This document shows positions 31,188 to 46,508 of a DNA stretch of 64,000 nt, piece by piece; positions within the stretch are counted from its first letter, which is position 1, and each line of letters opens with the position of its first letter. Made by a program: the position numbers and the translations under genes. This stretch comes from Flavobacteriaceae bacterium (GTDB lineage: Bacteria; Bacteroidota; Bacteroidia; Flavobacteriales; Flavobacteriaceae): positions 62,001-126,000 of the forward strand of contig JANQSO010000001.1 in NCBI GenBank assembly GCA_028284005.1. Direction: 5' to 3'. Under the pieces are notes generated by a model. That model had not been told where the DNA came from, searched no databases, and saw only the letters and a program-made list of their open reading frames with translations.

Positions 31188-31262
31188 TTTTGCATAACCC
31201 CAAGCGTTGCTTGAGGGTTAAAGGAAAATAAAAATACTGTAATACGCATAGGCGTATTAGGG

Positions 31263-31325
31263 ATGGTATTTGCAGTAGCGGGTTTACTCTGGATCACGCG
31301 AGTAATCCAGTACAGAGAGTTTTAA
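31263..31325 (+). CDS. repeat unit 1: 20-residue hydrophobic reading frame
   Basis: ATG to TAA frame of 20 codons: MVFAVAGLLWIT then RVIQYREF, a single membrane-helix-like peptide with a charged tail. A 7-bp hairpin (31241-31258) ends four bases before the ATG and could hide the ribosome site. Small hydrophobic tandem peptides behind hairpins recall type I toxin families (Ibs, Ldr), but no antisense RNA was shown, so translation is not proven. Confidence 0.35.
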   Translation: MVFAVAGLLWITRVIQYREF

Positions 31326-31365
31326 AGGAAAATAAAATATTGTAATACGCATAGGCGTATTAGGG

Positions 31366-31428
31366 ATGGTATTTGCAGTAGCGGGTTTATTCTGGATCAC
31401 GGCAGTAATCCAGTGCAGAGAGATTTAA
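31366..31428 (+). CDS. repeat unit 2: 20-residue hydrophobic reading frame
   Basis: Same layout as unit 1 (hairpin of the AATACGC type, four-base gap, ATG), with sequence MVFAVAGLFWIT then AVIQCREI. Relative to unit 1 an indel occurs upstream of the hairpin, but none between ATG and stop. Possible minigene. Confidence 0.35.
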   Translation: MVFAVAGLFWITAVIQCREI

Positions 31429-31466
31429 AGAAAAATAAAAATCCTTATGAGCGGAAGCTCATTGGG

Positions 31467-31646
31467 ATGGTATTTGCAGTAGCGGGTTTGTTCTGGATCA
31501 CGGCAGTAATCCAGTGCAGAGAGTTTTTAAAGGAAAATAAAAATACTGTAATACGCATAGGCGTATTAGGGATGGTATTTGCAGTAGTGGGTTTACTCTG
31601 GATCACGCCAGTAATTCAGTACAAAGAGTTTTTAAAGGAAAATTAA
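31467..31646 (+). CDS. repeat units 3-4: fused 59-residue reading frame
   Basis: In unit 3 the stop codon of the shorter units is lost (TTTTTA for TTTTAA), so the frame runs through the A-rich lead and the next hairpin into unit 4. The product would have two membrane helices (MVFAVAGLFWITAVIQ and GMVFAVVGLLWITPVIQ) joined by a Lys/Asn-rich linker, repeating every 35 codons. It uses the GGAA-loop hairpin (31447-31462) before its ATG. An upstream GTG at 31413 would lengthen it but is unlikely. Confidence 0.4.
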   Translation: MVFAVAGLFWITAVIQCREFLKENKNTVIRIGVLGMVFAVVGLLWITPVIQYKEFLKEN

Positions 31647-31748
31647 AACCCTTATGAGCAAAAGCTCATTGGGATGGTATTTGCAGGGGTAATTTTTGAA
31701 ATCATGAATCCACCAAACTCATACCACTCAAAAGCTCCACAACTTAAT

Positions 31749-32059: not shown

Positions 32060-32108
32060 AATAATACTTTATTGTTTTAATATCTTAGTGTGTCTCATAA
32101 CTCCCCGT

Positions 32109-32315
32109 ATGAAAAAAAGAATGTATAACAGGATCAAAGCGGTTCTTGCTGAAAAGGACAGAACCAATAATTGGCTCGCTGAAAAACTTAGTATGAATCG
32201 GACAACGGTTTCCAAATGGTGCAGGAACGAAATGCAACCGAGAATAGAAACGCTTTTTCAAATTGCCGAAACCTTAGAGGTAGATGTAAGGGAGTTGCTT
32301 GTATCTACTCAATAG
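32109..32315 (+). CDS. XRE-family HTH regulator
   Basis: A 68-residue protein (ATG at 32109, second Met of the open frame) that is almost entirely a Cro/cI-type HTH domain: NWLAEKLSMNRTTVSKWCRNEMQPRIETLFQIAETLEVDVRELL. Similar stand-alone regulators occur with restriction-modification, toxin or mobile elements. Its last codons and the following 100 bases are repeated, in decayed form, at 46365-46508, and the cassette array begins about 125 bases downstream. Confidence 0.85.
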   Translation: MKKRMYNRIKAVLAEKDRTNNWLAEKLSMNRTTVSKWCRNEMQPRIETLFQIAETLEVDVRELLVSTQ

Positions 32316-32412
32316 ATCAATTGCTTTATTGGTCCTTTAAAAATAATTACATTGGATAAGGATGCAAAAGTTTAATGAAAACCATCACCAGTATACTTAT
32401 TTAGTGGCATAA
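32271..32412 (+). repeat. array leader repeat, copy A (xre 3' end plus downstream)
   Basis: Includes the last codons of xre (ELLVSTQ-stop) and the run GATCAATTGCTTTATTGGT, TAATTAC, AAAAGTTTA and TATTTAGTG. Copy B, 14.1 kb to the right, matches these features in the same order at roughly three bases in four by eye. Copies A and B bracket most of the cassette array. Confidence 0.7.
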
Positions 32413-32449
32413 TGATGTATAATACATCAGTATATCCTAGTTGTGTGCA
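32411..32449 (+). repeat. site S0: array-start half-site
   Basis: Only the right half of the site family is recognisable (ATCAGTATATCCTA then GTTGTGTGCA at 32440-32449). The last ten bases are the exact reverse complement of TGCACACAAC at 35856-35865. It could be a degenerate attC or an attI-like entry point. Confidence 0.5.
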
Positions 32450-32477
32450 ATTATGAAAAACTAACAAACTTTAAAAA

Positions 32478-33707
32478 ATGAACGTAACAGATTTACTAAA
32501 AAAAGCAACAAAAAATATTACAATTATTGGAGTTTGTGGAATTTCAGACGAAATTGTCAAATTCTTGAATGAAAAAGATGAGCAATTATCTATCACAATT
32601 CTATGCGAATCTGATAACTACATTTTTAATAAAGCTATTCTTTCCGATAATAATCATTCACAGCAAAGAATATCATTCTCAGATTATAGATTTGAGCTTA
32701 ATAGAATCACGAGTGAGTTAGCTGATAAATATTCTAATGACGATAGTGTTGAAATCAAAATATCATATGTCGAAATACCTAAAAGAACTATAATTGTTGA
32801 CTCTCAATTCTACACAAGTGAATGGGTAATTGTGCCTGATACAGAATATAAGCTTGTGGATAAAAATTCTGAACTAGAATTAAGTATTAACAACTATGTC
32901 ACATTATTAAACGAAAAAGAAGTTGGACAAAAATTTTTAGCACCTTATAAAAACGAAAAAGGAAAAATTATTGAAACAATTGAACTTTTTGATGAAGATA
33001 GGATTAGACGTGGAGTTTTTCCAAGAAGTGCTTTTTATGATACAGACTTTATTAAACTTGTTGTTTGGGTTTATATTTTCGACAGAAAAGGACGACTATT
33101 AATTCACAAGCGAGCCGACAATGCAAAAGACAACAGAAGTATGTGGGACAAATCTGTTGGAGGACACGCTGATTACTTAAATGATATTGATACTTCTAAA
33201 ACTGTACCTAGAGAGGTAATAGAGGAATTAGTGACTGATGAAAATGTTGGTTCAACTTTTATTAAAACAAATGATGATGATGTTATATTTCTTGGAGAAT
33301 GGCGTCCTGATAAAAGAATATCAAATCCATTCAAAGAGATAGAAAATTATAAAAATAATTGGGTTTATTTTCGTATGCCTAAGTATGAACGAACATCTTC
33401 CCCAAGAATACTTCCTGATGGTACACAAAAAAATAATGAGGTTATTGCAGATACATATCTCTTTTTGTTATCTGATGATATAGATTCTGACAAAATCTCT
33501 GAGTTTAAAAATTCCAGTTACAAACTTCTTTATCCTAGAGAAGTTAAAAATGCAATAGAAAATAGTAAATCTGGAAAAGAAGATTTGAATTTTGATGGTC
33601 TCGAAGATTTAAAATTTTCACCCGACTTAAACTATACTTTTAATAGTAAGCTTCGTTATGAATTGGAACAATTCTCAAATTATATAAAGGCTTACTTTAA
33701 TGGGTAG
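32478..33707 (+). CDS. Nudix-domain protein heading a four-gene operon
   Basis: A 409-residue protein. Residues about 180-330 form a Nudix fold (FIKLVVWVYIFDRKGRLLIHKRA, then a Nudix box beginning GGHADY at about residue 228 and ending PREVIEELV). The box has the REVIEEL half but a non-standard first half. The first 170 residues are a separate alpha/beta domain (NITIIGVCGISDEIVKFLNE) with no family that I recognise. Nudix enzymes hydrolyse nucleoside diphosphate-linked compounds. The end overlaps the next gene by eight bases, so coupling with the three kinase-like genes is likely. Strongly AT-rich. Confidence 0.75.
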   Translation: MNVTDLLKKATKNITIIGVCGISDEIVKFLNEKDEQLSITILCESDNYIFNKAILSDNNHSQQRISFSDYRFELNRITSELADKYSNDDSVEIKISYVEIPKRTIIVDSQFYTSEWVIVPDTEYKLVDKNSELELSINNYVTLLNEKEVGQKFLAPYKNEKGKIIETIELFDEDRIRRGVFPRSAFYDTDFIKLVVWVYIFDRKGRLLIHKRADNAKDNRSMWDKSVGGHADYLNDIDTSKTVPREVIEELVTDENVGSTFIKTNDDDVIFLGEWRPDKRISNPFKEIENYKNNWVYFRMPKYERTSSPRILPDGTQKNNEVIADTYLFLLSDDIDSDKISEFKNSSYKLLYPREVKNAIENSKSGKEDLNFDGLEDLKFSPDLNYTFNSKLRYELEQFSNYIKAYFNG

Positions 33708-34305
33708 AATAATTACACTAACAGGTCCTTCTCAATCAGGCAAAAGCACAGCAAAAGATTTCTTCCTTAAACACAGTCATAAAGAGGGAGAAGAAGATGG
33801 ATGGTACTACCCTATATCGATTCCTAAATATAATACTAGAAAACCAAGAAAAGACGACAAGCCCGATGAAGTAATTAGTAGAAAGGTATTACCGAAAAAA
33901 TGCGATTTAGTATATCAACAATATGATGTTCGCTATGGTTTTTCATCAAAAGATTTATTAAAAAAATTACAAGAAGGTTTTATCTGTCTTATCGTAATCA
34001 ACGATGTCAGAACGATTAGTGAAGTGAAAAGAATTTTTGGTAAACTATGCAAGTCTATCTATCTACATCGACAAGCTATATCAAAAGCTGACTTCATTGC
34101 AGAAGCAAAAAAAAGAGGGAACAACGATGATAAAATGATTGAAAAGCGCATAAAGAAGGCAGAAGCTATTTATCGTATTTATATTGAAAATATAGACTTA
34201 TTTGATAATGTGCTTTTAAATTCTAGTAATGAAGAGAACTTAGAGGCACAAATAATTAAAGTTATTGAATCTCTTAACATTAAAAATCAACACTATTTCA
34301 AGTGA
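33700..34305 (+). CDS. guanylate-kinase-like P-loop protein 1
   Basis: A 201-residue protein with the layout of guanylate kinases: a Walker A GPSQSGKST at about residues 9-17, a YNTRKPR segment matching the GMP-binding TTRxPR loop near 45, and YGFSSK matching the YGTS-type loop near 85. The last third is a helical C-terminus. It overlaps the Nudix gene by eight bases. The Walker A is standard, unlike the two paralogues that follow. Substrate unknown; an unusual nucleotide or a non-nucleotide target is possible. Confidence 0.75.
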   Translation: MGRIITLTGPSQSGKSTAKDFFLKHSHKEGEEDGWYYPISIPKYNTRKPRKDDKPDEVISRKVLPKKCDLVYQQYDVRYGFSSKDLLKKLQEGFICLIVINDVRTISEVKRIFGKLCKSIYLHRQAISKADFIAEAKKRGNNDDKMIEKRIKKAEAIYRIYIENIDLFDNVLLNSSNEENLEAQIIKVIESLNIKNQHYFK

Positions 34306-34871
34306 AAAGCAAATCAAAAATAGTTATTGTGGTTGGAACGCCTGGTTCTGGTAAAGACATCTTAATACAAGCTGTTAATGATATGGGTTCTTTTCACGCT
34401 GTTATAGTACCTAAACACACATCAAGAAAAAGAGAAAGTGATGATGGGAATGAAATGATTTGCTGTGATGATAAAGATTACGATTTAAAAAATTGTGATA
34501 TCATTTATGACAATTATGGGACAAAATATGGAGTAAAGTCTAAAAAGTTGTGGGAAGGTGTGAAAAATGAAACTATACAAGTTGTAGTCATTAGTAATAT
34601 AAAAGCTATAAATCAAATTATTTCAATTTTTCAAAAAAATGTAATTGTTGTCTTCGTTCATTCAGATATGAATAAGGAAGAATATAGAAAAGAACAATTG
34701 GCTTTAGGTAAATCAGAAGAGTACATAAACAGTAGATTTGGAAAGTTTGAAAAGGCTTATGGAATTTATAGAGAAAACTTTAATCTTTTTAATCACGTTT
34801 TAATTTTCTCTAATTCACCAGAAGATTTATTTGACCAATTATTTAGATTATTTAATTATTATCAAAACTAA
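34302..34871 (+). CDS. guanylate-kinase-like P-loop protein 2
   Basis: The GTG at 34302 overlaps the previous stop (GTGA), giving 189 residues. The P-loop is GTPGSGKD: the Ser/Thr that normally binds magnesium is an Asp and no Thr follows it. HTSRKRE near residue 43 and YGTKYGV near 75 keep the guanylate-kinase pattern. This may be a kinase with altered metal use or a nucleotide-binding regulator. It is the second of three paralogues. Confidence 0.72.
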   Translation: MKSKSKIVIVVGTPGSGKDILIQAVNDMGSFHAVIVPKHTSRKRESDDGNEMICCDDKDYDLKNCDIIYDNYGTKYGVKSKKLWEGVKNETIQVVVISNIKAINQIISIFQKNVIVVFVHSDMNKEEYRKEQLALGKSEEYINSRFGKFEKAYGIYRENFNLFNHVLIFSNSPEDLFDQLFRLFNYYQN

Positions 34872-34873
34872 AA

Positions 34874-35854
34874 ATGGAAAAATTTCAAAACATAAAAAGG
34901 TTATTTGAAAAAATAAGAAGTTCACCAGAATTGACTGCTATTGCAGAAGATAAAAGGATACCAATTCTTTTAAATATTATGGAACCAACTTTTGGGCCAA
35001 TATTTGATTCTCTGGTTTTGGGAAACGTAAGAGACAAAAGTTTAGCGGACAAATTCCAAGCAATAGAAGAAAATCTTGAAAGCAATCTTTCCGAGGATGA
35101 TGGAATTCAACTTTTAGATATAATTGCTGATAATAGAGAAATTTTATTTACTTCGATTGCCAATGTAGAATCATTGATGGATGAACATAATGAACTAAAG
35201 AAATTAGTTTCTACTTATCTTGCAATTCCTAGTGACCAAGAAGAAACATTTATACCTTCGTCATCATTTAAATTTGTAGTAATAGCTGGTGCTTCGGGAA
35301 CTGGTAAAGATGTACAGTTAGAATTATTGCACAAACATCAATTTAAAAATTACAGGCACAACGATATACTCACCAAATTTTCAACTCGAAAACCGAGAAA
35401 TCAAGACTCAGATTATTATGAATTTATAAAAAAAGCTGAGTTTTTGAAAATGAAAGAGAATGGCGATATACTATTTCCATACGACAAGCGAAATTATTTT
35501 TACGGTTTTGATAAAGTCCAATTTGTGGATGAGGCGACTGGGAGCAATCTTTTATTTTCAATATTCACAGAATTTGAGATGGCACAAACGGCAAAAGCTT
35601 TCTTAACTGAATTAGGTATAAATAATCAATTTATTCTATTCAATGCATCAGAAAACGTGCTAAGGAGAAGAGCTTGGCATAGGAACTTTAGTGTTGCAGA
35701 AGTAAAGAGGAGAATAACATCAATTCAAAAAGATATTCAGTTTATTGAACAGAACAAAGCATCATTAGAATCAATATACGATTTTGTAGAGGTTGGAGAT
35801 GATAAGTCTATAAACGAAATTCATAAAACTCTAATTGAAATAATCGATAAATAA
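34874..35854 (+). CDS. guanylate-kinase-like P-loop protein 3 with N-terminal extension
   Basis: A 326-residue protein. About 130 helical residues precede a kinase domain with a GASGTGKD Walker A (Gly139-Asp146), FSTRKPR near 170 and a C-terminal helical half (VLRRRAWHRNFSVAEVKRRI) of the LID/CORE type. The last Walker A residue is again Asp. The gene begins three bases after the second kinase-like gene. The block ends two bases later in site S1, so all four genes form one large cassette. Confidence 0.75.
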   Translation: MEKFQNIKRLFEKIRSSPELTAIAEDKRIPILLNIMEPTFGPIFDSLVLGNVRDKSLADKFQAIEENLESNLSEDDGIQLLDIIADNREILFTSIANVESLMDEHNELKKLVSTYLAIPSDQEETFIPSSSFKFVVIAGASGTGKDVQLELLHKHQFKNYRHNDILTKFSTRKPRNQDSDYYEFIKKAEFLKMKENGDILFPYDKRNYFYGFDKVQFVDEATGSNLLFSIFTEFEMAQTAKAFLTELGINNQFILFNASENVLRRRAWHRNFSVAEVKRRITSIQKDIQFIEQNKASLESIYDFVEVGDDKSINEIHKTLIEIIDK

Positions 35855-35855
35855 C

Positions 35856-35990
35856 TGCACACAACAATGTGTATAAGTAATAGCGGTTTAAGTGATAAAA
35901 CGGAAGTATAAACATAAAACAAGGGTAAATAGTAATCTGTATAGTTAGTGTGTAGAAATTTACTACTACACATAGCTGGGATCTTTGTGA
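35856..35990 (+). repeat. site S1 (attC-like)
   Basis: Opens TGCACACAAC-AATGTGTATAAGTAAT one base after the stop codon; the first ten bases are complementary to the start of the same block at 32440. The right half (ACTACTACACATAGCTGGGATCTTTGTG) is divergent: the final GTTR is not exact. Confidence 0.6.
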
Positions 35991-36021
35991 AACATTAAAA
36001 CTCAAACTCACGAATTAAAGA

Positions 36022-37116
36022 ATGGACTTAAAAAAAACTCGAATTGAGGGGATGAAAATCTTCAAAGTAAGTCCTGAAGTTATGAATAGCGAAAGTGAGG
36101 AAACGAAAAATATTGTAAAACAGGCATTAAAAGAGAAACCTCTAAAAATTTGGGAAAGAGAATTAAAGCAACATAAATCAAATCTGTTTATGTCAAATGA
36201 AGAAGGTGATGTTTTTCAAGCAACTACCTTTGTTCATAAAAAGAAAATATTCGCTGGGATTGCTCCAAACTTGATTCAAGCATATTTTGATATGGCTTAT
36301 GAGCAAATTCAATGGACTAATAAATATGCTGATACATTCCATTACATTGCATCCGAAAAATTTGACCGAATAAAGTTTATTGACACGCCAATATTCAACA
36401 GATTCATTCAATATAGAATTAGCTCAATAATATTTTTACACTTATCAGTCGAGGCTTTTATAAATTATATCATTCCTGACAATTTTATCTACTGCAAAAC
36501 TGAAAAATCAAACTCGAATAAATTCCAAGAACAGATAACAAAACTCAATAAAGAAAATATTGAGCGTTGGGTTAGTTTCAAAGAAAAAATAGAAGAAGTA
36601 ATTCCGCAACTACCCAACAATGCCTTTGACATAAAAAAGAATAGTGATATAATTGGACGAATTCTTGAGATTGAAAACATACGGAATGAAATTATTCATT
36701 TAAAGAGCAAAGATTCAAATTCAAATATGCACTATGAAAAGGTGTTTAATTTTGTTGCATCTAAAGACTTAAGCAAATATTTATTTTCAGTAAAAAAGCT
36801 TATAAATATTTTACAAAAGGATTATATAAAAATTGATAAGATTCAAGAAGACAATAACACAAAAGAAATATATATTGAAAAGGCTGAACATCTTCACATT
36901 GGAGTATATTTTGAGGTCATTAAACAAAAAGAAAAACGAATTACAATTTTTATTGACAAATGGAGAGGACTTACTAAAGAAAGTGAGTATTTAAAGGTTG
37001 TATTATCTTATCTGAAATTAATGGAAGATATGAATTTGATAATGGACTATTTGATAAGTGAAGAAAAAAAGAAATTCAAAATAGAGATATTTAAGAATGA
37101 TGAACAAATAAAGTAA
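36022..37116 (+). CDS. HEPN-like protein of unknown function
   Basis: A 364-residue, predominantly helical protein. The middle contains ENIRNEIIHLKSK, with Arg221-(4)-His226, the RxxxxH signature of HEPN ribonucleases, preceded by a helix with SVEAFINYIIP. HEPN proteins cut RNA in toxin-antitoxin and phage-defence systems. The C-terminal 100 residues have a helix-strand pattern and no membrane segment. No antitoxin neighbour is in the same block. The assignment rests on one motif. It lies alone between sites S1 and S2. Confidence 0.5.
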   Translation: MDLKKTRIEGMKIFKVSPEVMNSESEETKNIVKQALKEKPLKIWERELKQHKSNLFMSNEEGDVFQATTFVHKKKIFAGIAPNLIQAYFDMAYEQIQWTNKYADTFHYIASEKFDRIKFIDTPIFNRFIQYRISSIIFLHLSVEAFINYIIPDNFIYCKTEKSNSNKFQEQITKLNKENIERWVSFKEKIEEVIPQLPNNAFDIKKNSDIIGRILEIENIRNEIIHLKSKDSNSNMHYEKVFNFVASKDLSKYLFSVKKLINILQKDYIKIDKIQEDNNTKEIYIEKAEHLHIGVYFEVIKQKEKRITIFIDKWRGLTKESEYLKVVLSYLKLMEDMNLIMDYLISEEKKKFKIEIFKNDEQIK

Positions 37117-37237
37117 CTACCTCAACAACGTGTATAAGTAATCAGCCCGACAGAGTTGTTCTGGCGGTTTTGGTTTGTATTTGCTAAATTAGTTATTGAA
37201 ACACGCAACGAAATTATATACTAGACCGTTATACTTA
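37117..37237 (+). repeat. site S2 (attC-like)
   Basis: Begins CTACCTCAACAACGTGTATAAGTAA, one base after the stop, then a central TTTGCTAAATTAGTTATTG, then GCAACGAAATTATATACTAGACC and GTTATACTTA (37228-37237). The last ten bases pair exactly with TAAGTATAAC at 37903. Confidence 0.75.
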
Positions 37238-37247
37238 ATTTACCAAA

Positions 37248-37526
37248 ATGCGAATAATCGAGATAAACGGAAATAAATTTTCAAATATGAAAGGTTTTTA
37301 TCGAGAAATAGAATCGAAAATGACCTTTGGGCTGAATTGGAAAATTGAACGGAATCTCAATGCATTTAATGATGTTTTTTATGGGGGATTTGGTGTTCAC
37401 GATGTTGACGAAAAATATATTTTAAAATGGCATCAAAGTGAAAAAAGTAAATATGAACTAAAATATTATGACCAAATAATTGAAATAATTAAAGAACACG
37501 AGAATATAGAATTACAATTGACATAA
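37248..37526 (+). CDS. orphan barstar-like protein
   Basis: A 92-residue protein with the barstar layout: an opening strand (IIEINGNKFSNMKGF), a helix (YREIESKMTFG), the NLNAFNDVFYGG loop in the place of NLDALWDCLTGW, a strand with ILKWHQSEKSK like LVLEWRQFEQSK, and a final ELQLT strand. Barstars inhibit barnase-type RNases. No barnase-like gene is next to it, so it may protect against an incoming toxin. It is followed with no gap by the gene at 37527. Confidence 0.7.
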   Translation: MRIIEINGNKFSNMKGFYREIESKMTFGLNWKIERNLNAFNDVFYGGFGVHDVDEKYILKWHQSEKSKYELKYYDQIIEIIKEHENIELQLT

Positions 37527-37898
37527 ATGCTCTTCTGGAAAATTGAAAATAGAATTGAACCCAAACGGGATTTTTACTCAAAAATTAAAGAGTATTACAT
37601 TGGAATTTCTGACAATCAGATTCCGACTGAATTACTTAATGAAATAATTTCAAAAGTAACAGACGAAATATATTGTAATTATAAACGATTTTGGAAGCAA
37701 TATCCAAAATCACGAAAAAGATATTCGACTTTAAAAATTGAGGATATTGAACATACTTTTATTCATTATTTGATAACTGACTTTTTTGAAAAAAGGAAAT
37801 TAGCAGAATCTCGGAATTTTTCAAAGATTCTGTTTAAAATGAATGACAAGGAATTTGACAAGTATTTAGATCAAAAAGATTGGTATGAAACGAAATAA
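37527..37898 (+). CDS. protein of unknown function, coupled to the barstar-like gene
   Basis: A 123-residue protein that begins right after the previous TAA. It is charged and rich in Lys, Glu and aromatic residues (FWKQYPKSRKRYSTLKIEDIEHTFIHYLITDFFEKRKL), probably a small helical bundle. I do not recognise a family. It shares the cassette with the barstar-like gene, so the two may act as a pair. Confidence 0.55.
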   Translation: MLFWKIENRIEPKRDFYSKIKEYYIGISDNQIPTELLNEIISKVTDEIYCNYKRFWKQYPKSRKRYSTLKIEDIEHTFIHYLITDFFEKRKLAESRNFSKILFKMNDKEFDKYLDQKDWYETK

Positions 37899-37902
37899 AA
37901 AC

Positions 37903-38038
37903 TAAGTATAACAATGGCCTTAAGTAACCAACCCTACAGAGCCGTTCTAGCGGGTTGCAGGATTCCTTTTAGTTCGTTTTCTTTTGCTAAATTAGTCCTA
38001 GTCAATGCTACTAACCATATACGAACATGTTGTGGTGC
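37903..38038 (+). repeat. site S3 (attC-like)
   Basis: Opens TAAGTATAAC-AATGGCCTTAAGTAACC, contains GTTTTCTTTTGCTAAATTAG and ends CTAACCATATACGAACAT-GTTGTGGTGC (38029-38038). The first ten bases complement the previous block start at 37228 exactly; the last ten complement GCACCACAAC at 38723 exactly. Confidence 0.82.
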
Positions 38039-38095
38039 ATTTTGACAAACCGCTCGAATAAAACAAATTTCTCTTTCAAATTCTAAAAAAATTAT

Positions 38096-38118
38096 TACTT
38101 TTGTATCTAAATGGATAC
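38096..38118 (+). promoter_or_regulatory. promoter and candidate operator of the toxin-antitoxin pair
   Basis: TACTTTTG at 38096-38103 fits the -7 consensus. It is followed by GTATC-TAAATG-GATAC, an inverted repeat of 5 bp overlapping the transcription start and eight bases upstream of the toxin ATG, a natural place for HigA-type autorepression. Confidence 0.5.
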
Positions 38119-38126
38119 ACTTTTAA

Positions 38127-38429
38127 ATGATTATTACCGAAAAAACATCTGAGTTTGATAAGTGGATTAGAAAGCTAAAAGATATTCGGGCAAAATCTAA
38201 AATTCTTTTCCGAATTCAGAAACTTGAAACGGATGAACATTTCGGAGATTGTAAACCTATAGGAGACGGAATAAGTGAAATGCGAATTAATTATGCTAAA
38301 GGCTACCGGGTATATTTTAAGGAAAAAGACAATAAAATTGTTATTCTTCTAATTGGTGGAGATAAATCAACTCAACAAAAAGATATCGAGAAAGCGAAGA
38401 AAATTTGGGACAGAATAAAAAATGATTGA
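38127..38429 (+). CDS. RelE/HigB-type toxin
   Basis: A 100-residue protein of the phage-derived Gp49/HigB (addiction-module killer) group: FDKWIRKLKDIRAKSKILFRIQKLE, then FGDCKPIGDGISEMRINYAKGYRVYF and IVILLIGGDKSTQQKDIEKAKKI, the conserved final segment. These toxins cut mRNA at the ribosome. The gene overlaps the antitoxin by eight bases and has the toxin-first order of HigBA modules. Confidence 0.88.
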   Translation: MIITEKTSEFDKWIRKLKDIRAKSKILFRIQKLETDEHFGDCKPIGDGISEMRINYAKGYRVYFKEKDNKIVILLIGGDKSTQQKDIEKAKKIWDRIKND

Positions 38430-38715
38430 TATGACAACAACAAAATTTGACATAGCAGACTATTTGGACAACGAAGAAATGATAGCTGAATATCTAAATA
38501 CTGTTCTCGAAGATGGAGACAGCTCTGATTTGATAATTGCAATCGGACATATAGCAAAATCTATCGGAATGACTAAAATTGCCGAAAAAACTGGAATGAG
38601 CAGAACAAGTCTTTATAAAGCATTATCCGACGGAGCAAAACCACAATTTGGAACAATAATAAAAGTGCTGAAAGCTATTGGCGGACAAATCAACGTGAAA
38701 CCAATGTCAGCATAA
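38422..38715 (+). CDS. HigA-type antitoxin (XRE-like)
   Basis: A 97-residue protein (ATG at 38422; another ATG three codons in). After DIADYLDNEEMIAEYLNTVLEDGD there is an XRE HTH (GMTKIAEKTGMSRTSLYKALSDGAKPQFGTIIKVLKAIG). This layout marks the antidote of HigBA-like addiction modules that neutralises the toxin and represses the operon, likely through the inverted repeat at 38103-38118. TA pairs are frequent cassettes that stabilise large arrays. Confidence 0.88.
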   Translation: MIDMTTTKFDIADYLDNEEMIAEYLNTVLEDGDSSDLIIAIGHIAKSIGMTKIAEKTGMSRTSLYKALSDGAKPQFGTIIKVLKAIGGQINVKPMSA

Positions 38716-38722
38716 AAAAACG

Positions 38723-38794
38723 GCACCACAACAATGGCAATAATTCATTACGGCTTTGTGCCATACCAAAATCATAGCCGGAACCGTTGGTAGT
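38723..38794 (+). repeat. site S4 (attC-like)
   Basis: A compact member, about 70 bp: GCACCACAAC-AATGGCAATAATTCATTACGGC, then ATCATAGCCGGAACC and GTTGGTAGT (38786-38794). GGC(A)ATAAT can pair with ATCATAGCC as an L-box-like stem. The first ten bases complement the start of its block at 38029 exactly. Confidence 0.8.
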
Positions 38795-38804
38795 ACAGAA
38801 AAGA

Positions 38805-39443
38805 ATGAATAGATCAGTTGACAATTATTTTATTGAAGGCTGTGGACGTTGCCCACTTGGAGGCACTCCTGGCTGTAAAGTTCATAATTGGACCTCAGAA
38901 TTAGAACTATTAAGAAAAATAGTTCTTGAATGCGGGTTGACAGAGGAATCTAAATGGGGTGCGCCCTGCTATACTTTTCAGAATAAAAATATACTTATGG
39001 TGAGCGCTTTAAAAGAATATTGCTGTATCAGCTTTTTTAAAGGTTCCTTGTTAAGTGATGATAAAGACCTTTTGGTGAAACCCGGACCGAATTCACAAGC
39101 AGCAAGGCTTTTTAAGTTTATAAATAGTAATGAAATAATAAAGATCGAAAGTGATATAAAAGCATACATCTTTGAATCTATTGAGGTAGAAAAAGCGGGT
39201 TTAAATGTCACATTTAAGAAGAACCCAGAACCCATTCCTGAGGAACTGGAAACGAAATTTGAAGAAGACCCTGTTTTGAAAAACGCTTTTGAGGCCTTAA
39301 CTCCCGGAAGGCAGAGAGGTTACATTCTTCATTTTTCTCAACCCAAACAAGCAAAGACAAGGGTCTCGAGGATTGAAAAGTGTATGCCTATGATCTTATC
39401 CGGGATAGGATTGCATGATAAGTACAGATCCATGAAAAAATAA
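38805..39443 (+). CDS. DUF1801/YdeI-family protein
   Basis: A 212-residue protein (ATG at 38805; the frame is open from 38787). The N-terminal half has DUF1801 features (LRKIVLECGLTEESKWGAPCYTFQNKNILMVSALKEYCCISFFKG) and the C-terminal part LTPGRQRGYILHFSQPKQAKTRVSRIEKCMPMIL is the YdeI/OmdA signature. Such proteins are stress-linked and common, but their activity is not known. The small cassette ends in site S5. Confidence 0.8.
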   Translation: MNRSVDNYFIEGCGRCPLGGTPGCKVHNWTSELELLRKIVLECGLTEESKWGAPCYTFQNKNILMVSALKEYCCISFFKGSLLSDDKDLLVKPGPNSQAARLFKFINSNEIIKIESDIKAYIFESIEVEKAGLNVTFKKNPEPIPEELETKFEEDPVLKNAFEALTPGRQRGYILHFSQPKQAKTRVSRIEKCMPMILSGIGLHDKYRSMKK

Positions 39444-39446
39444 ACT

Positions 39447-39520
39447 GCCGCCAACACTATATATAAAAAACACTCAAGATTTGTCTATCTTTGAGTTCTC
39501 CCTGCTTTTATAGTGTGGTA
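39447..39520 (+). repeat. site S5 (attC-like, divergent)
   Basis: GCCGCCAAC-ACTATATATAAAA pairs with TTTTATAGTGT in an inverted repeat. Inside is a second hairpin, ACTCAAGAT/ATCTTTGAGT (39471-39497). The first nine bases differ from the complement of its block start by three transitions, two of them G:T pairs. The right core is GTGTGGTA, not GTTR. Confidence 0.5.
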
Positions 39521-39577
39521 CATTTTACCAGAATGAACCGAAACCGAAAAACTAACTAAAACTGAATTAAAATTTTA

Positions 39578-40099
39578 ATGGATTTAGCAAGACACTGTGA
39601 TTTGTGCGACCATCAAAAGATTAGCTTAAAATTAGGAACGACTTGCGGATTAACTGATCGAAAACCTGAATTTAATAGAACTTGTGCGAAAATTGAACTT
39701 AACGAAAAGTTTGAACATAAGCTGAAGTCTGTCAATATAGAATACCAAAATATTAAACGAAAAAAAATATTGACCTACACTTACTTTGCTGTTTTTCTTG
39801 CTATTGGAATTGCTGTAATTGTAGGCGGTTATTTACTGGGAAAATATGCTTTAGATAGTGGAGTGATCTCAACTGTACCTATAATAATTATGGGTGTTGG
39901 ACTTGTGCCTCTCGGAATGGCATTTGGGACTTTAAATAAACACAGACAGGAAATTGAAGTCGCCAAAAGTAAAAAAGATAAAGTTGACGAAGTATTGAAT
40001 GAATACAGAATTGAATATGTTATTAACATTGTGTTTGGAAAAGAAATTCATGGAACTCAAGAAGTTTATGCTGAATTAAAAACTAAAGGAATTAGTTAA
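39578..40099 (+). CDS. small membrane protein with cysteine-rich N-terminus
   Basis: A 173-residue protein. The first 40 residues hold four Cys in the spacing C-x2-C-x13-C-x13-C (CDLCDH ... CGLTDRKPEFNRTC), possibly a zinc site. Two membrane helices follow (about 68-92 and 100-120), then a charged cytoplasmic tail with a coiled coil. No family recognised. Low-GC and AT-rich. It lies between sites S5 and S6. Confidence 0.6.
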   Translation: MDLARHCDLCDHQKISLKLGTTCGLTDRKPEFNRTCAKIELNEKFEHKLKSVNIEYQNIKRKKILTYTYFAVFLAIGIAVIVGGYLLGKYALDSGVISTVPIIIMGVGLVPLGMAFGTLNKHRQEIEVAKSKKDKVDEVLNEYRIEYVINIVFGKEIHGTQEVYAELKTKGIS

Positions 40100-40102
40100 A
40101 AA

Positions 40103-40175
40103 AAACCATAACAATGGCTATAAGTAATTGCTTCCTGTGAGACGCTACTGCTCATAACCGAGACTGTTAGGTGTT
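40103..40175 (+). repeat. site S6 (attC-like)
   Basis: Canonical layout: AACCATAAC-AATGGCTATAAGTAATTGC ... GCTCATAACCGAGACT-GTTAGGTGTT (40166-40175). The last ten bases complement AACACCTAGC at 40703-40712 at nine of ten positions, with the exception a G:T pair. Confidence 0.75.
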
Positions 40176-40189
40176 ATTTTGATATAATT

Positions 40190-40711
40190 ATGGAAAACAA
40201 TAAATATTACGAAACAGCAAGTTCTCATTTCGTATCTAGATTCCAAATGAGAGATAATGTTTTACTGTTATACTTAGCTGCTGTCGGAGCAATATTCGGT
40301 GTAGCATTTGGATCTAAGAATAATTTCGAAGTGCTACTTACAATTCCGTATATTGCATTGGGGTGCTCTTATCTTATAGCGCATCATAATGTCATGCTCG
40401 GTGCTTTATTAAGCTATTTGAATAAAGTCAGTTCAATTGATAATAACAATGAAAGTTTTGAAAGGTCACAAGCACTTGATTCACGATTTAACAATGCTCT
40501 AAACTTACGTACATGGGGACAGATGATTATTCTATTATTACCAGCTTTAACAAGTCTATTACTTAATTATAAAATAATTCTTTGTGTACTATTTCCGGAA
40601 ATCTTATTATTGGGTTTTGGATTAATATGTTTTATACTTGCTATTATTCTACTTTGGAGAATTCATAAAAAGCAGAAAAAATTGAAGCCGAGTTTGTTAA
40701 GCAACACCTAG
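40190..40711 (+). CDS. small multi-span membrane protein
   Basis: A 173-residue protein with four hydrophobic segments in two hairpins (about residues 20-60 and 105-150) and a basic C-terminus. No motif recognised. Its last codons (SNT-stop) are part of the opening arm of site S7, so the coding end and the recombination-site arm overlap. Confidence 0.6.
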   Translation: MENNKYYETASSHFVSRFQMRDNVLLLYLAAVGAIFGVAFGSKNNFEVLLTIPYIALGCSYLIAHHNVMLGALLSYLNKVSSIDNNNESFERSQALDSRFNNALNLRTWGQMIILLLPALTSLLLNYKIILCVLFPEILLLGFGLICFILAIILLWRIHKKQKKLKPSLLSNT

Positions 40712-40744
40712 CAACGGATATAACCCATTGTCAAATTTTGGCTA
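40703..40744 (+). repeat. site S7 (attC-like, truncated)
   Basis: Opening AACACCTAGC overlaps the stop codon of the previous gene and matches its block start (40166) at nine of ten bases. It continues CAACGGATATAACCCATTG but the right half is lost before the next gene. Confidence 0.5.
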
Positions 40745-40800
40745 ACTTTAAAATCTCCCCATTCAATAAAACTCACTCAAAACAGAAGAAACACTATTTA

Positions 40801-41184
40801 ATGAAAACGAGACTTCCCTTTTTTATTTTTATTTTAGTAATACTTACTAGTTGTGACCCTGAAAATGATTTCTATATAAGTGGAAAAATATCTGACGGAG
40901 AGCTTAAAACCAAAATCATCAATGCGGATATTGAATTTATATGCTATACTAATAATATGGAATGGAATTTTGAAAAGTACATAACACAAACTAATAAAGA
41001 CGGAATATTCAATGATACCATAGTCTCATTAAGGAGTTTTGATAGCATAAAAATCAAGATCAGCAAAAAAGGCTATTTGACAAAAGAAATAAAAACAGAA
41101 AGAAATGAATGGGAAATCACCCGTGGATTTATGAAAACGGAGTTCCATATTAATTATGAAAATATTGAACTGATAAAAAAATAA
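40801..41184 (+). CDS. small lipoprotein
   Basis: A 127-residue lipoprotein (ATG at 40801; the frame begins 21 codons earlier but the lipoprotein signal MKTRLPFFIFILVILTSC starts here). The mature part (DFYISGKISDGELKTKIINADIEFIC ... KISKKGYLTKEIKTERNEW) looks like a carboxypeptidase-regulatory/CNA-B-type beta sandwich. Role unknown. Confidence 0.65.
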   Translation: MKTRLPFFIFILVILTSCDPENDFYISGKISDGELKTKIINADIEFICYTNNMEWNFEKYITQTNKDGIFNDTIVSLRSFDSIKIKISKKGYLTKEIKTERNEWEITRGFMKTEFHINYENIELIKK

Positions 41185-41222
41185 CTATTGCTAACAACAA
41201 CTATAGTAACTAGCCTTACAGA
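41185..41222 (+). repeat. site S8 (attC-like, left half only)
   Basis: ATTGCTAACAACAACTATAGTAACTAGCC resembles the opening of the site family but runs straight into the next gene without a right half. Confidence 0.35.
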
Positions 41223-41804
41223 ATGAAATCGAAACTAAATATTCATAATCTTTCAGTATTGTTTATAATAGTATTGGGATTGACTTCCTCAAACTGTAAT
41301 TCTAGTAAAGAGATTACAAGTTTTGAAGAAGTTAAAGCTGGAAAGGAACTTGACCGAGCGATAGAAATCAATTTAACGGATTTTTTTCAGATTTGGATGT
41401 CTAATAATCCTCACTCTAAACTAGACCAAAATTGCTATGAATTATTTAAAGACGAATACTTTACATATTTTGGAGAAAATGAACTTAGAGGGTTAAATAT
41501 TAAGAAAAAGCTATATAAGATAAAGAATGAAATTCTATCAAATGATTTTCGAAATTATAAAAAAGTGGATAGAATATTAATCAGACAAAAATTTTTAAAT
41601 GAGATAGTACCTGAAAGTGACAGTTCTATTTACAAGGAATCTGAATGCTCATCAAGTTCAAGTAGCCCCAAATTTTCTTATAAATTAATAAGCAACAAGA
41701 TAGAAACTACTTTAAAATGGAAATTCCGGTGCGATGGAAAAAAACTATTTGAGAATACCTATAAAGGTGTTTTTGACTTAAATAAAATGGAATTTGAAAA
41801 ATAA
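41223..41804 (+). CDS. lipoprotein of unknown function
   Basis: A 193-residue protein with a lipoprotein signal (SVLFIIVLGLTSSNC) and a charged body (LDRAIEINLTDFFQIWMSNNPHSKLDQNCYELFKDEYFTYF). Four further Cys are spread over it. No family recognised. AT-rich, typical of the array. Confidence 0.6.
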   Translation: MKSKLNIHNLSVLFIIVLGLTSSNCNSSKEITSFEEVKAGKELDRAIEINLTDFFQIWMSNNPHSKLDQNCYELFKDEYFTYFGENELRGLNIKKKLYKIKNEILSNDFRNYKKVDRILIRQKFLNEIVPESDSSIYKESECSSSSSSPKFSYKLISNKIETTLKWKFRCDGKKLFENTYKGVFDLNKMEFEK

Positions 41805-41806
41805 AA

Positions 41807-41970
41807 CTACAGGCAACAAAAGCTATAAGTAACCAGCTTGAAAGAGTCGTTCTGACAGGTTACTTGTTCTTACCCACTTCTGAAAATCCGTAAAGATTTT
41901 CATCTGATCTTTATTTGCTACCTTAGTTACTGAAACATGCAATGAGCTATACACGAATATGTTGGCAGGC
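41807..41970 (+). repeat. site S9 (attC-like)
   Basis: One of the longest members: ACAGGCAAC-AAAAGCTATAAGTAACC ... TTTGCTACCTTAGTTACTG ... GAGCTATACACGAATAT-GTTGGCAGGC (41961-41970). AGCTATAAG and GAGCTATAC face each other as the inner stem. Its last ten bases do not match the next site closely. Confidence 0.65.
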
Positions 41971-42011
41971 ATTGCAAAAAAGACTACGGATATTAAAAAA
42001 TAATTATTTAA

Positions 42012-42446
42012 ATGGCAAAAAATAAAACAACCGAAACGGAAGTCGATGTCTTTGATTTTATAGAATCATACGTAGAGAATGACCAAAAGAAGGCAGATAG
42101 CCATAAATTAATAGAATTAATGAGTGAATGGTCAGGTTTTGGTCCAAAAATGTGGGGACCAACAATTATTGGTTTTGGAAGCTATCACTATAAGTATGCC
42201 AGTGGTCATGAAGGAGATGCTCCTTTGCTAGGTTTTTCACCACGAAAAGCGCAGTTTTCGTTATACGTATACTCACAAACTGATACTAGTAAACGTATCC
42301 TGGAAGATTTTGGCAAATACAAAATGGGAAAGGCTTGCATTTATATTAAGAAGCTTTCTGATATAAATATTACAAAATTGGAAGAACTATGTTCAGAAAC
42401 CATCGCATATCTCAATGAACACCATGAATGCGCTTGTAGAAATTAG
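42012..42446 (+). CDS. DUF1801-domain protein
   Basis: A 144-residue single-domain protein with the DUF1801 pattern: VFDFIESYVENDQKKADSHKLIELMSEWSG, WGPTIIGFGSYHYKYASGHEGDAPLLGFSPRKAQFSLYVY, then YKMGKACIYIKKLSDINITKLEELC. The family is widespread in soil and marine bacteria and of unknown activity. It is the second DUF1801-type gene in the array. Confidence 0.82.
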   Translation: MAKNKTTETEVDVFDFIESYVENDQKKADSHKLIELMSEWSGFGPKMWGPTIIGFGSYHYKYASGHEGDAPLLGFSPRKAQFSLYVYSQTDTSKRILEDFGKYKMGKACIYIKKLSDINITKLEELCSETIAYLNEHHECACRN

Positions 42447-42450
42447 CAAC

Positions 42451-42556
42451 GACCCGCAACCACATATATAGTACATTGCTTGCTCTGTGCGTACTCGTTT
42501 TCTTTTATTAACTTACCTCCTGGCCAACGCAACTAACCATACACAAAACGTCATAG
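42451..42556 (+). repeat. site S10 (attC-like)
   Basis: GACCCGCAAC-CACATATATAGTACATTGC ... TTTTCTTTTATTAACTTACC ... CAACGCAACTAACCATACACAAAACGTC. The final GTTR is GTCATA here. Central and right parts closely resemble S3, S11 and S13. Confidence 0.6.
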
Positions 42557-42564
42557 ACAATACA

Positions 42565-43101
42565 ATGAAAACGTTGATAGAAACAGAAAGGTTATTGTTA
42601 AGGGAAATTACCCTGGATGATAAAGAAGGAATGTTTAAGATGTATTCCGATCCGGCCGTACAAAAGTATACGGGGGAACCTCTGGTTGAATCTATAGAAG
42701 AAATGGAACGGGCAATAAAGTCAAGAATTAACAATTATGCGAAGTATGGATACGGAAGATGGGCCGCCTTTCTAAAAAAAGAGATGCAGTTTATTGGCTG
42801 GGCCGGTTTGGCATATCTCCCTGAATTTGATGAAATCGATCTGGGGTATAGATTCTTACCCAAATATTGGGGGATGGGTTTTGCAACAGAAGCATCTCAT
42901 GCAGTTTTGAGATATGGATTTGATGTACTCAAATTGAAAAAGATCATTGCAATTGCAATGAAAGAAAATAAAGCATCGATAAGAGTGATGGAAAAAGTTG
43001 GGATGGAATTCGACAAATTTGCGCCTTACGACCCTGGAGGTGAAGATGTTGTCTGGTATTGGTGTGACCAAAAGCTTATAGCAAAAAATAAAGTACATTA
43101 A
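42565..43101 (+). CDS. GNAT acetyltransferase (RimJ/RimL-like)
   Basis: A 178-residue protein from the ATG at 42565 (26 upstream codons lie in site S10). It opens LIETERLLLREITLDDKEGMFKMYSDP, with LGYRFLPKYWGMGFATEASHAVLRYGFDVL holding the acetyl-CoA-binding helix and IRVMEKVGME near the end. These features match the RimJ/RimL group, which acetylates protein N-termini or small amines. It has no site between it and the next two genes, so all three may share one block. Confidence 0.85.
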   Translation: MKTLIETERLLLREITLDDKEGMFKMYSDPAVQKYTGEPLVESIEEMERAIKSRINNYAKYGYGRWAAFLKKEMQFIGWAGLAYLPEFDEIDLGYRFLPKYWGMGFATEASHAVLRYGFDVLKLKKIIAIAMKENKASIRVMEKVGMEFDKFAPYDPGGEDVVWYWCDQKLIAKNKVH

Positions 43102-43138
43102 CATGCTTTCTAAAAACGATCATTACATAAAATTAGAT

Positions 43139-44371
43139 ATGAAATATTTGTTCAATATAAGTATTACGGTATGGGTTCTTATCTGTATAACTTCTTGTAA
43201 GGATAATGACGATAAATCAATAGTATTAAAAGAACCAACAATAATCAATGTACTGAATGGACAATTGTCGACCAGCTCCATATTAATTGAAAATGGCTTT
43301 ATAAAAGGAATAGGGGCTTACGACGAACTTGCTAAAAAAAGTTCGATAAGGGTAATAGATTGTAAGGGAAAATATGTGATCCCCGGCTTATTTGATATGC
43401 ACATGCATATTGCAGAAGAAGAAAATATGGTTCCCGAGCTTGACAGATTGTTAAAGAATGGAATCACCGGAATCCGGGATATGGGCGGTATTGCAGACAC
43501 AATTGCTCGTGCAAAAAAAATGATTCGCAACGGGAATATGCAAGGACCGGATATTTATTTTGCCGGTGTTACACTAGATGGCCCGCAAACCCAAGATCCG
43601 TTCCATTTTAAAGTGTATGATACTACCAACATAAAGACCCTGGCTGCCAACTTAAAAAGCCTGGGAGTGGACTTTTTCAAAGTGCACAATTACTTCCCAA
43701 CTGATAAGTTAACTGAACTGAAGAAAGCCGGTAACGAATCAGGCCTAAAAATTGCAGGACATATTCCCGTGGGTATCGGACCAATGGAACTGGATTCTGT
43801 TGGAATCAAAAGTGTTGAACACATAAACTCTTTACTTAGCGGTATCGTCTTAAAGGAATCTAATGGTGTAAATAATCTTACAGAAGCATTAATAGCTTTA
43901 GATTCTACTTATATTTCCAAATTATCTGCATATTTCAGAAAAAATGATATTGCCCTGACACCAACATTGTATGCTATGGATGATATGTATTCTAATTTGG
44001 AAAACGAAGCTTCAAGAGCTGTGGGACTTCGTTTGATGACCCATTTTCATAACATTATTAAATGGATGGGTCAAAATGATGTGTTGTTATTGGCAGGGAC
44101 CGATAGAGGCACATTCAACGACACCAATATTGATGAACTACAAGATGAATTGGTCATGATGGTTACATCTGGCCTGTCACCATTGGAAGCCTTAAGAACT
44201 GCAACTATAAATCCGGCAAAGTTTCTCGAAATTGATAAAGAATACGGTTCTGTAGAAAAAAATAAAAAGGCGAATCTCGTAATTTTGAATAGCAATCCTT
44301 TAAGTGATATATCCAATACGAAAGATATCAACTTTGTACTAAAAGATGGTGAGTTATTCAAAGAATCATAA
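43139..44371 (+). CDS. amidohydrolase-family lipoprotein
   Basis: A 410-residue protein with a lipoprotein-like start (VWVLICITSC; ATG at 43139, frame open 12 codons upstream). The amidohydrolase fold is clear: KYVIPGLFDMHMHIAEE (metal-binding HxH), GITGIRDMGG, IAGHIPVGIG and VEHINSLLSG, LLLAGTDRGTF (metal Asp) and NPLSDISNTKDINFVLKDG as the usual end. Substrate cannot be read; imidazolonepropionase- or prolidase-like enzymes share this pattern. It is exported, so a peptide or cyclic amide is plausible. Confidence 0.85.
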   Translation: MKYLFNISITVWVLICITSCKDNDDKSIVLKEPTIINVLNGQLSTSSILIENGFIKGIGAYDELAKKSSIRVIDCKGKYVIPGLFDMHMHIAEEENMVPELDRLLKNGITGIRDMGGIADTIARAKKMIRNGNMQGPDIYFAGVTLDGPQTQDPFHFKVYDTTNIKTLAANLKSLGVDFFKVHNYFPTDKLTELKKAGNESGLKIAGHIPVGIGPMELDSVGIKSVEHINSLLSGIVLKESNGVNNLTEALIALDSTYISKLSAYFRKNDIALTPTLYAMDDMYSNLENEASRAVGLRLMTHFHNIIKWMGQNDVLLLAGTDRGTFNDTNIDELQDELVMMVTSGLSPLEALRTATINPAKFLEIDKEYGSVEKNKKANLVILNSNPLSDISNTKDINFVLKDGELFKES

Positions 44372-44385
44372 TAACTATAATCAAA

Positions 44386-44838
44386 TTGAACAAAAAAAAT
44401 AACTTATCGAATTATTACATCCTGAAAAGAGCTTTAGCCGGACTTTTGGATTATATATTATATTTCACTCTTTTTTATATTTCATGTGTCCTTTTTGGAG
44501 AAAAGCTACCTGGTGGAGGATTTACAGGGAACCATCTTTTCATTTTCTTTTTTGGTTTTTGGATTCTTTTAATGGTAGTTTCTGAAATGCTATTTGAAAG
44601 CACAATTGGAAATTTTTTGTTCGGATTAAAAGCTGTGAAGAAAAACGGAGAAAAAATGAATTTCTGGCAACCTTTGATTAGACATTGTGCCGACTTAATT
44701 GATATGTGGCCATTTGGTTTGGTTGGAATTCTGACAATTAAATTTACTAAAGACAATCAGCGTTTAGGAGATATGATAGCAGGAACAATAGTTGTTGAAA
44801 GGAATAAAGATGAAAAAGTTGCTTACAACAATATATAA
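44386..44838 (+). CDS. RDD-family membrane protein
   Basis: A 150-residue protein starting at TTG 44386. Three hydrophobic segments and the motif YILKRALAGLLDYILYFTLFYIS (RDD-type Arg ... Asp), plus LIRHCADLIDMWPFGLVG and DNQRLGDMIAGTIVVER near the end, mark the RDD family of small membrane proteins of unclear function (some are Na+/H+ exchange linked). The last codons lie in the opening arm of site S11. Confidence 0.85.
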   Translation: MNKKNNLSNYYILKRALAGLLDYILYFTLFYISCVLFGEKLPGGGFTGNHLFIFFFGFWILLMVVSEMLFESTIGNFLFGLKAVKKNGEKMNFWQPLIRHCADLIDMWPFGLVGILTIKFTKDNQRLGDMIAGTIVVERNKDEKVAYNNI

Positions 44839-44932
44839 CGCTCGTTACTGCTAAGTTTCCTATGGTTCATTTTCTTTTATTACTTTAGTTGCCGGCAAAC
44901 GTAACTACTTATAGCCGGGGCTGTTGTACATA
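44821..44932 (+). repeat. site S11 (attC-like)
   Basis: Opens GCTTACAAC-AATATATAACGC inside the end of the RDD gene, contains TTTTCTTTTATTACTTTAG and ends GTAACTACTTATAGCCGGGGCT-GTTGTACATA (44923-44932). No matching arm for the last ten bases was found at the next sites. Confidence 0.65.
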
Positions 44933-44947
44933 CTCAAAAATAAAAAC

Positions 44948-45913
44948 ATGAGAAAAGACCTTATTGTACTGTTAGTACTTCTTAGCTGTAATCTATCCTA
45001 TAGCCAGGGGACGGTAGAAGCCGAATTTGATACCATATATAATTATGCGTTTGACGCATTAAAGGGAACACATACTAAAAAGATAGTGATAGATGAATCG
45101 CATAATACGATCTACTCACTGTCCTATGGTAAACAGACCGCCCGTGAAATGCTGCGAATTATGGAGGAAGACGGTTTTACGGTTCAATTCACCGACCGGA
45201 AACTTGATTCTACCAACCTTGCAAAAGCCAATCCCGATCTGTTAATTCTCCACGGCATGCCCAACGACAAGATCGAATTGACGAATGCAGGCAAAAAGGA
45301 AGTTATGTATAAGTCTCCACTGCTCGATGAAGAAGTAATGGGCATCACAAAATATGTGTATAATGGAGGGAGCCTGTTCTTATTTTTAAGTCACTTTCCG
45401 GGAGGGAGCGGTGCGTTACCGCTTTTGGAAGCTTTTAGTATTAAGTTTAGAGACGGCTATGCGTATCATCCAAATTTCCCCGGGCACAATTGCGGCCAGT
45501 GCAGCCACTTTATAATGACAGAAAAGAATAAGATGATCAATACGGATCATCCTGTATTAGCTACCAGGCTTTCTGAAGAAACGCTTCCCGGTACTATAAA
45601 GTTCTTATGTGGTGCAGCTATATTCAGAAATCCGGAGGACAATATCCTTTCCTTTCCGAACAATACAATTAATTTCACACCAACTACAGATGGAAGCATA
45701 GATGTTGAAGAAGATTCAGATTCGTACGCGGGTATGATCGGGTTTAACTTTGGTGACGGAAGGGTAATTGTTTGCACGGATCAGGGTATCTTCAGAAGTT
45801 TGGACCTGCTTATTGACGGTGAGAAGATCCCGGTGACCATACATGATCCCGAATGTGATAATGCAGGCCTGTTTTTGAACTCCATTAGATGGTTATCCAA
45901 ATTGCAAAAATAA
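44948..45913 (+). CDS. exported protein with GATase/IFT52-like fold
   Basis: A 321-residue protein with a signal peptide (MRKDLIVLLVLLSCNLSYSQ, ATG at 44948). KIVIDESHNTIYSLSYGKQTAREMLRIMEEDGF, PDLLILHGMP and ITKYVYNGGSLFLFLSHFPGG suggest a Rossmann-type GATase/DUF4350/IFT52-like domain, used in Bacteroidota for sugar- or ligand-binding. NCGQCSHF holds a Cys pair. Function unknown. The next gene follows within 20 bases. Confidence 0.6.
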   Translation: MRKDLIVLLVLLSCNLSYSQGTVEAEFDTIYNYAFDALKGTHTKKIVIDESHNTIYSLSYGKQTAREMLRIMEEDGFTVQFTDRKLDSTNLAKANPDLLILHGMPNDKIELTNAGKKEVMYKSPLLDEEVMGITKYVYNGGSLFLFLSHFPGGSGALPLLEAFSIKFRDGYAYHPNFPGHNCGQCSHFIMTEKNKMINTDHPVLATRLSEETLPGTIKFLCGAAIFRNPEDNILSFPNNTINFTPTTDGSIDVEEDSDSYAGMIGFNFGDGRVIVCTDQGIFRSLDLLIDGEKIPVTIHDPECDNAGLFLNSIRWLSKLQK

Positions 45914-45933
45914 CACTCATAATAAAGTAAAAT

Positions 45934-46305: not shown

Positions 46306-46364
46306 ATAAATTTTCCTGCAATTGCCTTTAATCCCAACTGAGTGTATAGGTTTTATGAGGCATT

Positions 46365-46508
46365 ACTGAAGTTTTAAATGTAATGAAGCTGCTTGTTTCT
46401 ACTAAATAGATCAAATGCTTTATTGGTACTGTGTAAAAAATAATTACTTTCGGCATCGAAATAAAAGTTTAGTAAAGAAAATTCTTAGCAAGCCTATTTA
46501 GTGCAAAA
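46365..46508 (+). repeat. array leader repeat, copy B (decayed xre 3' end plus downstream)
   Basis: A fragment of an xre C-terminus (TEVLNVMKLLVSTK-stop, stop at 46407-46409) is followed by GATCAAATGCTTTATTGGTACT, TAATTACTTTC, AAAAGTTTAGTAAAG and TATTTAGTG, in the same order as copy A at 32271-32412. No ATG or HTH remains here, so it is a relic. It suggests that a leader segment was duplicated or that the array was inserted into it. Confidence 0.7.

Follow-up and report, generated by a model that had tools for sequence, protein, structure and literature searches.

A candidate nucleotide-handling conflict system of Nudix and guanylate-kinase-like proteins in an apparent integron-type cassette of a Flavobacteriaceae bacterium

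What would a bacterium do with a Nudix protein and three divergent relatives of guanylate kinase encoded back to back? Such a four-gene block lies in the 64,000-nucleotide stretch of Flavobacteriaceae DNA analysed here (the window), where a first-pass annotation had read it as a cassette for anti-phage defence or nucleotide signalling. Our preferred reading, to which we give a rough probability of 0.42, is that the block is a horizontally moved cassette for a conflict system that handles nucleotides, has not been described before, is most likely directed against phages and would work by the mechanism proposed below.

ORF calls and Pfam matches confirmed a Nudix gene and three guanylate-kinase-like genes (GK1, GK2 and GK3) at 32478-35854, adjoining or overlapping one another. 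The features of the block are:

32440 to 32449, forward strand: left core site R', GTTGTGTGCA, reverse-complementary at every position to the site at 35856
32478 to 33707, forward strand: Nudix protein gene, an ORF of 409 aa with a PF00293 match above cut-off and relatives in Ignavibacteriales, Melioribacteraceae and Shimia MAGs
32478 to 32915, forward strand: predicted PLD-like N-terminal domain of the Nudix protein (residues 1-146), HKD motif lost
33057 to 33365, forward strand: Nudix domain (residues 194-296), a Pfam match with the REx2EE core retained
33700 to 34305, forward strand: GK1 gene, a guanylate-kinase-like ORF of 201 aa with a Guanylate_kin match
34302 to 34871, forward strand: GK2 gene, a guanylate-kinase-like ORF of 189 aa with a GTG start
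34874 to 35854, forward strand: GK3 gene, 326 aa, an N-terminal region without family match followed by a GK domain
34874 to 35266, forward strand: N-terminal region of GK3, about 131 aa, no family match
35856 to 35865, forward strand: right core site R'', TGCACACAAC, opening an attC-like stretch with its end near 35955

The stop codon of the Nudix gene overlaps the start of GK1 (ATGGGTAG), as the stop of GK1 does the start of GK2 (GTGA), and a 2-nt gap without overlap separates GK2 from GK3. The four ORFs are not products of chance, since all show coding-type composition by codon position and each protein has homologues elsewhere or among the other three. The GC content of the cassette is 29.7%; the core genome on either side has 40-42%.

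The two core sites are the only ones of their kind in the window, are complementary at 10 of 10 positions and enclose exactly the four genes. Two neighbouring blocks are likewise enclosed by perfect 10-nt pairs of their own (37228/37903 and 38029/38723), and in both of them the downstream core site is followed by AACAATG and then by an attC-like stretch. Matching ends are the signature of an integron cassette, and the four genes together read as one integron-type gene cassette; the paired sites at 32440 and 35856 thereby sharpen the cassette claim of the first-pass annotation. Raw 10-nt inverted pairs are not in excess over the array (4 vs 4.4 expected by chance), and the evidence for cassettes lies in where the pairs sit, at the borders of gene blocks, combined with the AACAAT box. 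Single-strand folding of the attC-like stretch in the window is weak (z -0.5). For an integron cassette, 3.4 kb and four genes is long. With integron cassettes and the integrase-less attC clusters called CALIN (PMC9024848) it shares paired core sites at its ends, attC-like stretches and the lack of an integrase over cut-off. An integron integrase search (TIGR02249) gave no match over cut-off in the bacterium's own genome, which makes this cluster an integrase-less one. From the Bacteroidetes, the CALIN survey had earlier recorded only In0 elements, to which it added one complete integron, from Salinibacter (PMC9024848).

The array as a whole (32440-51500) is integron-type and integrase-less, with 33.5% GC and perfect 10-nt core pairs in three cassettes. 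An HTH gene at 32088-32315 falls outside the four-gene cassette. Its 3' end and about 100 nt downstream (32292-32415) are repeated at about 46386-46510, with an alignment score of 82 compared with at most 28 in 200 shuffles, and the repeat is possibly an old array start or a regulatory element. Direct repeats of about 103 nt lie beside two tRNA-Val genes (window 31218-31673), and the Rfam search returned nothing above thresholds except two tRNAs.

The toxin-antitoxin neighbourhood that had been noted around the block is real. A HigBA-like pair (Gp49 and dnstrm_HI1420 families; 38127-38715) occupies a cassette of its own, and a Barstar-like gene (Pfam E 2e-7) shares one cassette (37248-37898) with a gene for a 123-aa protein without assignment, with which it could be an inhibitor-toxin pair. 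The supposed HEPN-like neighbour fared less well: this 364-aa protein (36022-37116) carries RNEIIH, an Rx4H motif of the kind seen in HEPN domains, has no family match and is encoded in a separate cassette.

All four proteins score at or a little above the Pfam cut-offs: 30.7, 26.8 and 25.2 bits for GK1, GK2 and GK3 against Guanylate_kin (PF00625, gathering cut-off 25.2), and 22.3 bits for the 409-aa protein against NUDIX (PF00293, cut-off 21.1). This marks the sequences as highly diverged. Identity between GK1 and GK2 is 27-29%, and GK3 matches the guanylate kinase family phrog_1815 (E 8e-17). In a search of the genome with TIGR03263 (cut-off 160.45 bits), the three proteins reached 39.1, 35.4 and 16.7 bits, whereas a complete gmk on contig 3, away from the window on contig 7, scored 212.7, above the cut-off. 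By these scores the cassette proteins are not the housekeeping guanylate kinase, the kind of identity that the first-pass annotation had named as counting against its proposal. They resemble gmk (TIGR03263, PF00625) in fold, P-loop and phosphate-binding arginine, and differ from it in scoring 39 bits at best where the cut-off is 160, in their changed guanine-contact positions and in coexisting with a separate gmk.

Alignment with ordinary gmk proteins shows an intact P-loop in GK1, GK2 and GK3. The first arginine of TRxPR is retained in all three, and both arginines are present in GK1 and GK3. GK1 also retains the LID arginines, whereas GK2 has lost the second TRxPR arginine and has one LID arginine position changed; without these residues that GK1 keeps, GK2 may be inactive. 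The Glu preceding YG[ST], which contacts guanine, is replaced in all three proteins and in the alignable relatives, as is the Ser/Thr of YG[ST] itself (YGF in GK1, YGV in GK2 and YGF in GK3). The roles of the guanine-contact residues in guanylate kinase are established, and since they are replaced here, the phosphate acceptor is probably something other than GMP. The N-terminal stretch of GK3 (~130 aa) showed no family match and no likeness to known effectors.

These substitutions could also be read as the loss of catalysis altogether, the GK domains serving for binding as in MAGUK proteins: they would tether the Nudix protein to an effector and recognise a nucleotide or a protein of the phage. 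Such a scaffold would fit the loss of guanine-contact residues in every GK, the absence from GK2 of one LID arginine and the second TRxPR arginine, and a GK fusion partner that varies among relatives. A pure scaffold would, however, need neither the intact P-loops of GK1-GK3 nor the LID arginines of GK1, and we consider this explanation distinctly unlikely.

The Nudix domain retains its REx2EE metal-binding core, in which RE..EE is invariant in three members, and the canonical Gx5E part of the motif is not kept. Over this core, isopentenyl-diphosphate isomerase-type Nudix proteins are among the closest named relatives; the window protein differs from them in its score of 26.9 bits (cut-off 127), its extra PLD-like domain and the lack of isoprenoid context. 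For the N-terminal domain, residues 1-146 were modelled alone with AF2 from four input sequences, giving a model of moderate confidence (pLDDT 69, pTM 0.67); the full-length model was poor (pLDDT 47) and was left unused. Among solved structures, nearly all of the closest belong to the PLD type (Zucchini, FAM83, the TrmB sugar-binding domain, NucT, SauUSI and a polyphosphate kinase domain). A Foldseek search with this moderate-confidence model gave a best E of 1.5e-3, with none below 1e-3, and a VIA comparison gave a best Z of 9.0 for 4gen (110 residues, rmsd 2.9). In the alignment, none of the four members has an intact HxKxxxxD (HKD) motif: the Asp is kept, the His and Lys are not. We therefore describe the domain as a predicted PLD-like fold whose catalytic motif has been lost. 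In predicted fold and loss of the catalytic HKD it resembles the binding domains of TrmB and FAM83, differing in that identity to such domains is 8-17%. PLD-like domains of these two proteins bind rather than cut, and by this likeness a role as sensor or scaffold is suggested.

Are the four genes found together elsewhere? Only three relatives were identified, all on MAG contigs: Melioribacteraceae BQMY01000014.1 (locus L019), Ignavibacteriales PWTU01000292.1 (locus L018) and a contig of a Shimia MAG. The first two are the genomes with a strong Nudix relative in a profile search of one class; the third, found by a scan of a genome collection, ends within the Nudix gene, and the Ignavibacteriales contig is cut just after the GK1 start. 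The Melioribacteraceae operon encodes a GK-NDT fusion, a TM protein (N-terminal membrane helices, no family match), a Nudix protein with 32% identity (BLAST) to that of the window, and a tandem GK-GK protein whose second half is the best relative of GK2. Its NDT-like domain matches the PADLOC 'Effector, TIR' model (E 6e-10) and, weakly, Pfam Nuc_deoxyrib_tr. The operon is enclosed by a core-site pair complementary over 11 of 11 nt (locus positions 259 and 5725) and followed by three attC-like imperfect palindromes ~530 nt apart, with moderate folding (z -1.8 to -2.8), so that it too appears to be an integron cassette. In the Ignavibacteriales locus, a GT4-conflict glycosyltransferase gene (PF20706, E 2e-37) comes before a Nudix gene whose product is 39% identical to the window protein, and behind the latter the contig breaks off in the first part of a GK1 orthologue. 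Counting the window itself, linkage of Nudix with GK is thus present in 3 of the 3 loci long enough to show a GK, with differing partners, and the linkage for which the first-pass annotation had suggested looking recurs in both the Melioribacteraceae and the Ignavibacteriales MAGs.

Across 395 genomes of the class, GK1/GK2-type proteins occurred only beside the Nudix gene, the weak GK-type matches inspected being ordinary gmk, and the profile search yielded no further member. A GK1 query of 299 genomes of the bacterium's own family recovered none besides its own genome, and profiles run on 198 genomes of the Shimia family found no member besides the Shimia MAG, on whose other contigs no GK genes were found. 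No relative came from viral contigs, scanned with patterns of single proteins, or from phages and plasmids, searched by tblastn. The system is rare. Some weaker candidates were set aside: Paraclostridium Nudix and Vibrio guanylate-kinase matches have unrelated neighbourhoods, low-scoring Nudix matches in other genomes have no GK-like neighbours where these were inspected, and the PLD-like domain, suspected also in the Melioribacteraceae TM protein and at the C-terminus of the GT4 protein, gave sequence scores no higher than shuffles. Plasmid relatives of GT4-conflict have no Nudix or GK neighbours in the annotation shown. A Rhizobium plasmid protein of ~1300 aa (L064:6542-10483), annotated as cobalamin-dependent, contains a GT4-conflict-like stretch and has integrases on both sides.

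This distribution bears on the possibility that the genes are an accessory metabolic operon for house-cleaning or salvage, which would recycle or remove damaged or modified nucleotides and have no part in conflict. Every recognisable catalytic domain of the window operon handles nucleotides or diphosphates, and accessory metabolic genes are common cargo of integron cassettes; both speak for such a role. It sits poorly, though, with a rare, patchy and mobile distribution, with effector-like or conflict-type partners in the relatives and with a complete gmk elsewhere in the genome, and we regard it as unlikely.

The partners bring in a further alternative, in which the enzymes build a chain-terminating or otherwise modified nucleotide as an antiviral analogue: the kinases would raise an unusual NMP to the di- or triphosphate, the NDT-like or glycosyltransferase partners would alter base or sugar, and the Nudix protein would protect the host or clear side products. 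In this it would be comparable to prokaryotic viperins, which have nucleotide kinases as companions. Several kinases of the same fold with a changed base pocket, and partner enzymes in the relatives with the capacity to act on nucleosides or to transfer sugars, agree with this route. Yet the window operon encodes neither a radical-SAM enzyme nor any other evident maker of analogues, the NDT-like domain is closer to effector versions than to metabolic ones, and the GT4-conflict family is named after conflict systems and not after nucleotide synthesis; we judge this route improbable.

A conflict system of the preferred kind would have known company. Nucleotide-centred conflict systems with exchangeable effectors are already described as a general kind (PMC7159879), and they share with the present loci a conserved core with swapped partners and such components as Nudix, glycosyltransferase and TIR-related (DRHyd, SLOG) domains; all three kinds are among the effectors listed there. 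The cassette differs in that no STAND, vWA/MoxR or CD-NTase component was recognised in it, and guanylate is nowhere mentioned in that work. NDT-like genes form part of retron operons (PMC12548924). No defence model of PADLOC-DB 2.0 matches any of the four window proteins, and the family libraries and the papers searched showed no described system of Nudix and guanylate-kinase composition, in line with the first-pass annotation, which knew of none.

Because the Nudix and GK core is conserved while conflict-type partners change around it, a role in defence or conflict gains support. Of the original defence or nucleotide-signal proposal, the conserved linked unit and its effector-like or conflict-type partners are thus borne out, and anti-phage action and the making and removal of a signal are what we infer. 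In the proposed mechanism, GK1, and perhaps GK2, having kept the ATP loop and a phosphate-binding arginine, would phosphorylate or bind a nucleotide other than GMP, which perhaps marks infection. The Nudix protein, with its catalytically dead PLD-like domain as the sensor of a ligand, would hydrolyse the unusual nucleotide, so that the system stays quiet. As the nucleotide builds up, a fused GK (GK3 here, GK-NDT in Melioribacteraceae) would read it and switch the attached module such that the infected cell is harmed. Sequence alone decides neither among the rival explanations nor the direction of the chemistry, that is, which component is maker and which remover. The fuller possibility of a categorically new immune pathway, with duplicated and repurposed guanylate kinases as makers or readers of a novel signal or antiviral nucleotide, control by a Nudix protein with a pseudo-PLD sensor, exchangeable effectors and spread among distant bacteria on multi-gene integron cassettes, is one we hold to be doubtful.

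If the proposal is true, proteins of the guanylate-kinase fold would join the known components of bacterial conflict systems based on nucleotides, in a small operon whose chemistry is directly assayable. It would also mean that integron cassettes can transfer an entire system of several genes among distant bacteria, and that cassette transfer reaches a Flavobacteriaceae-like genome, in a group where cassette arrays have hardly been described.
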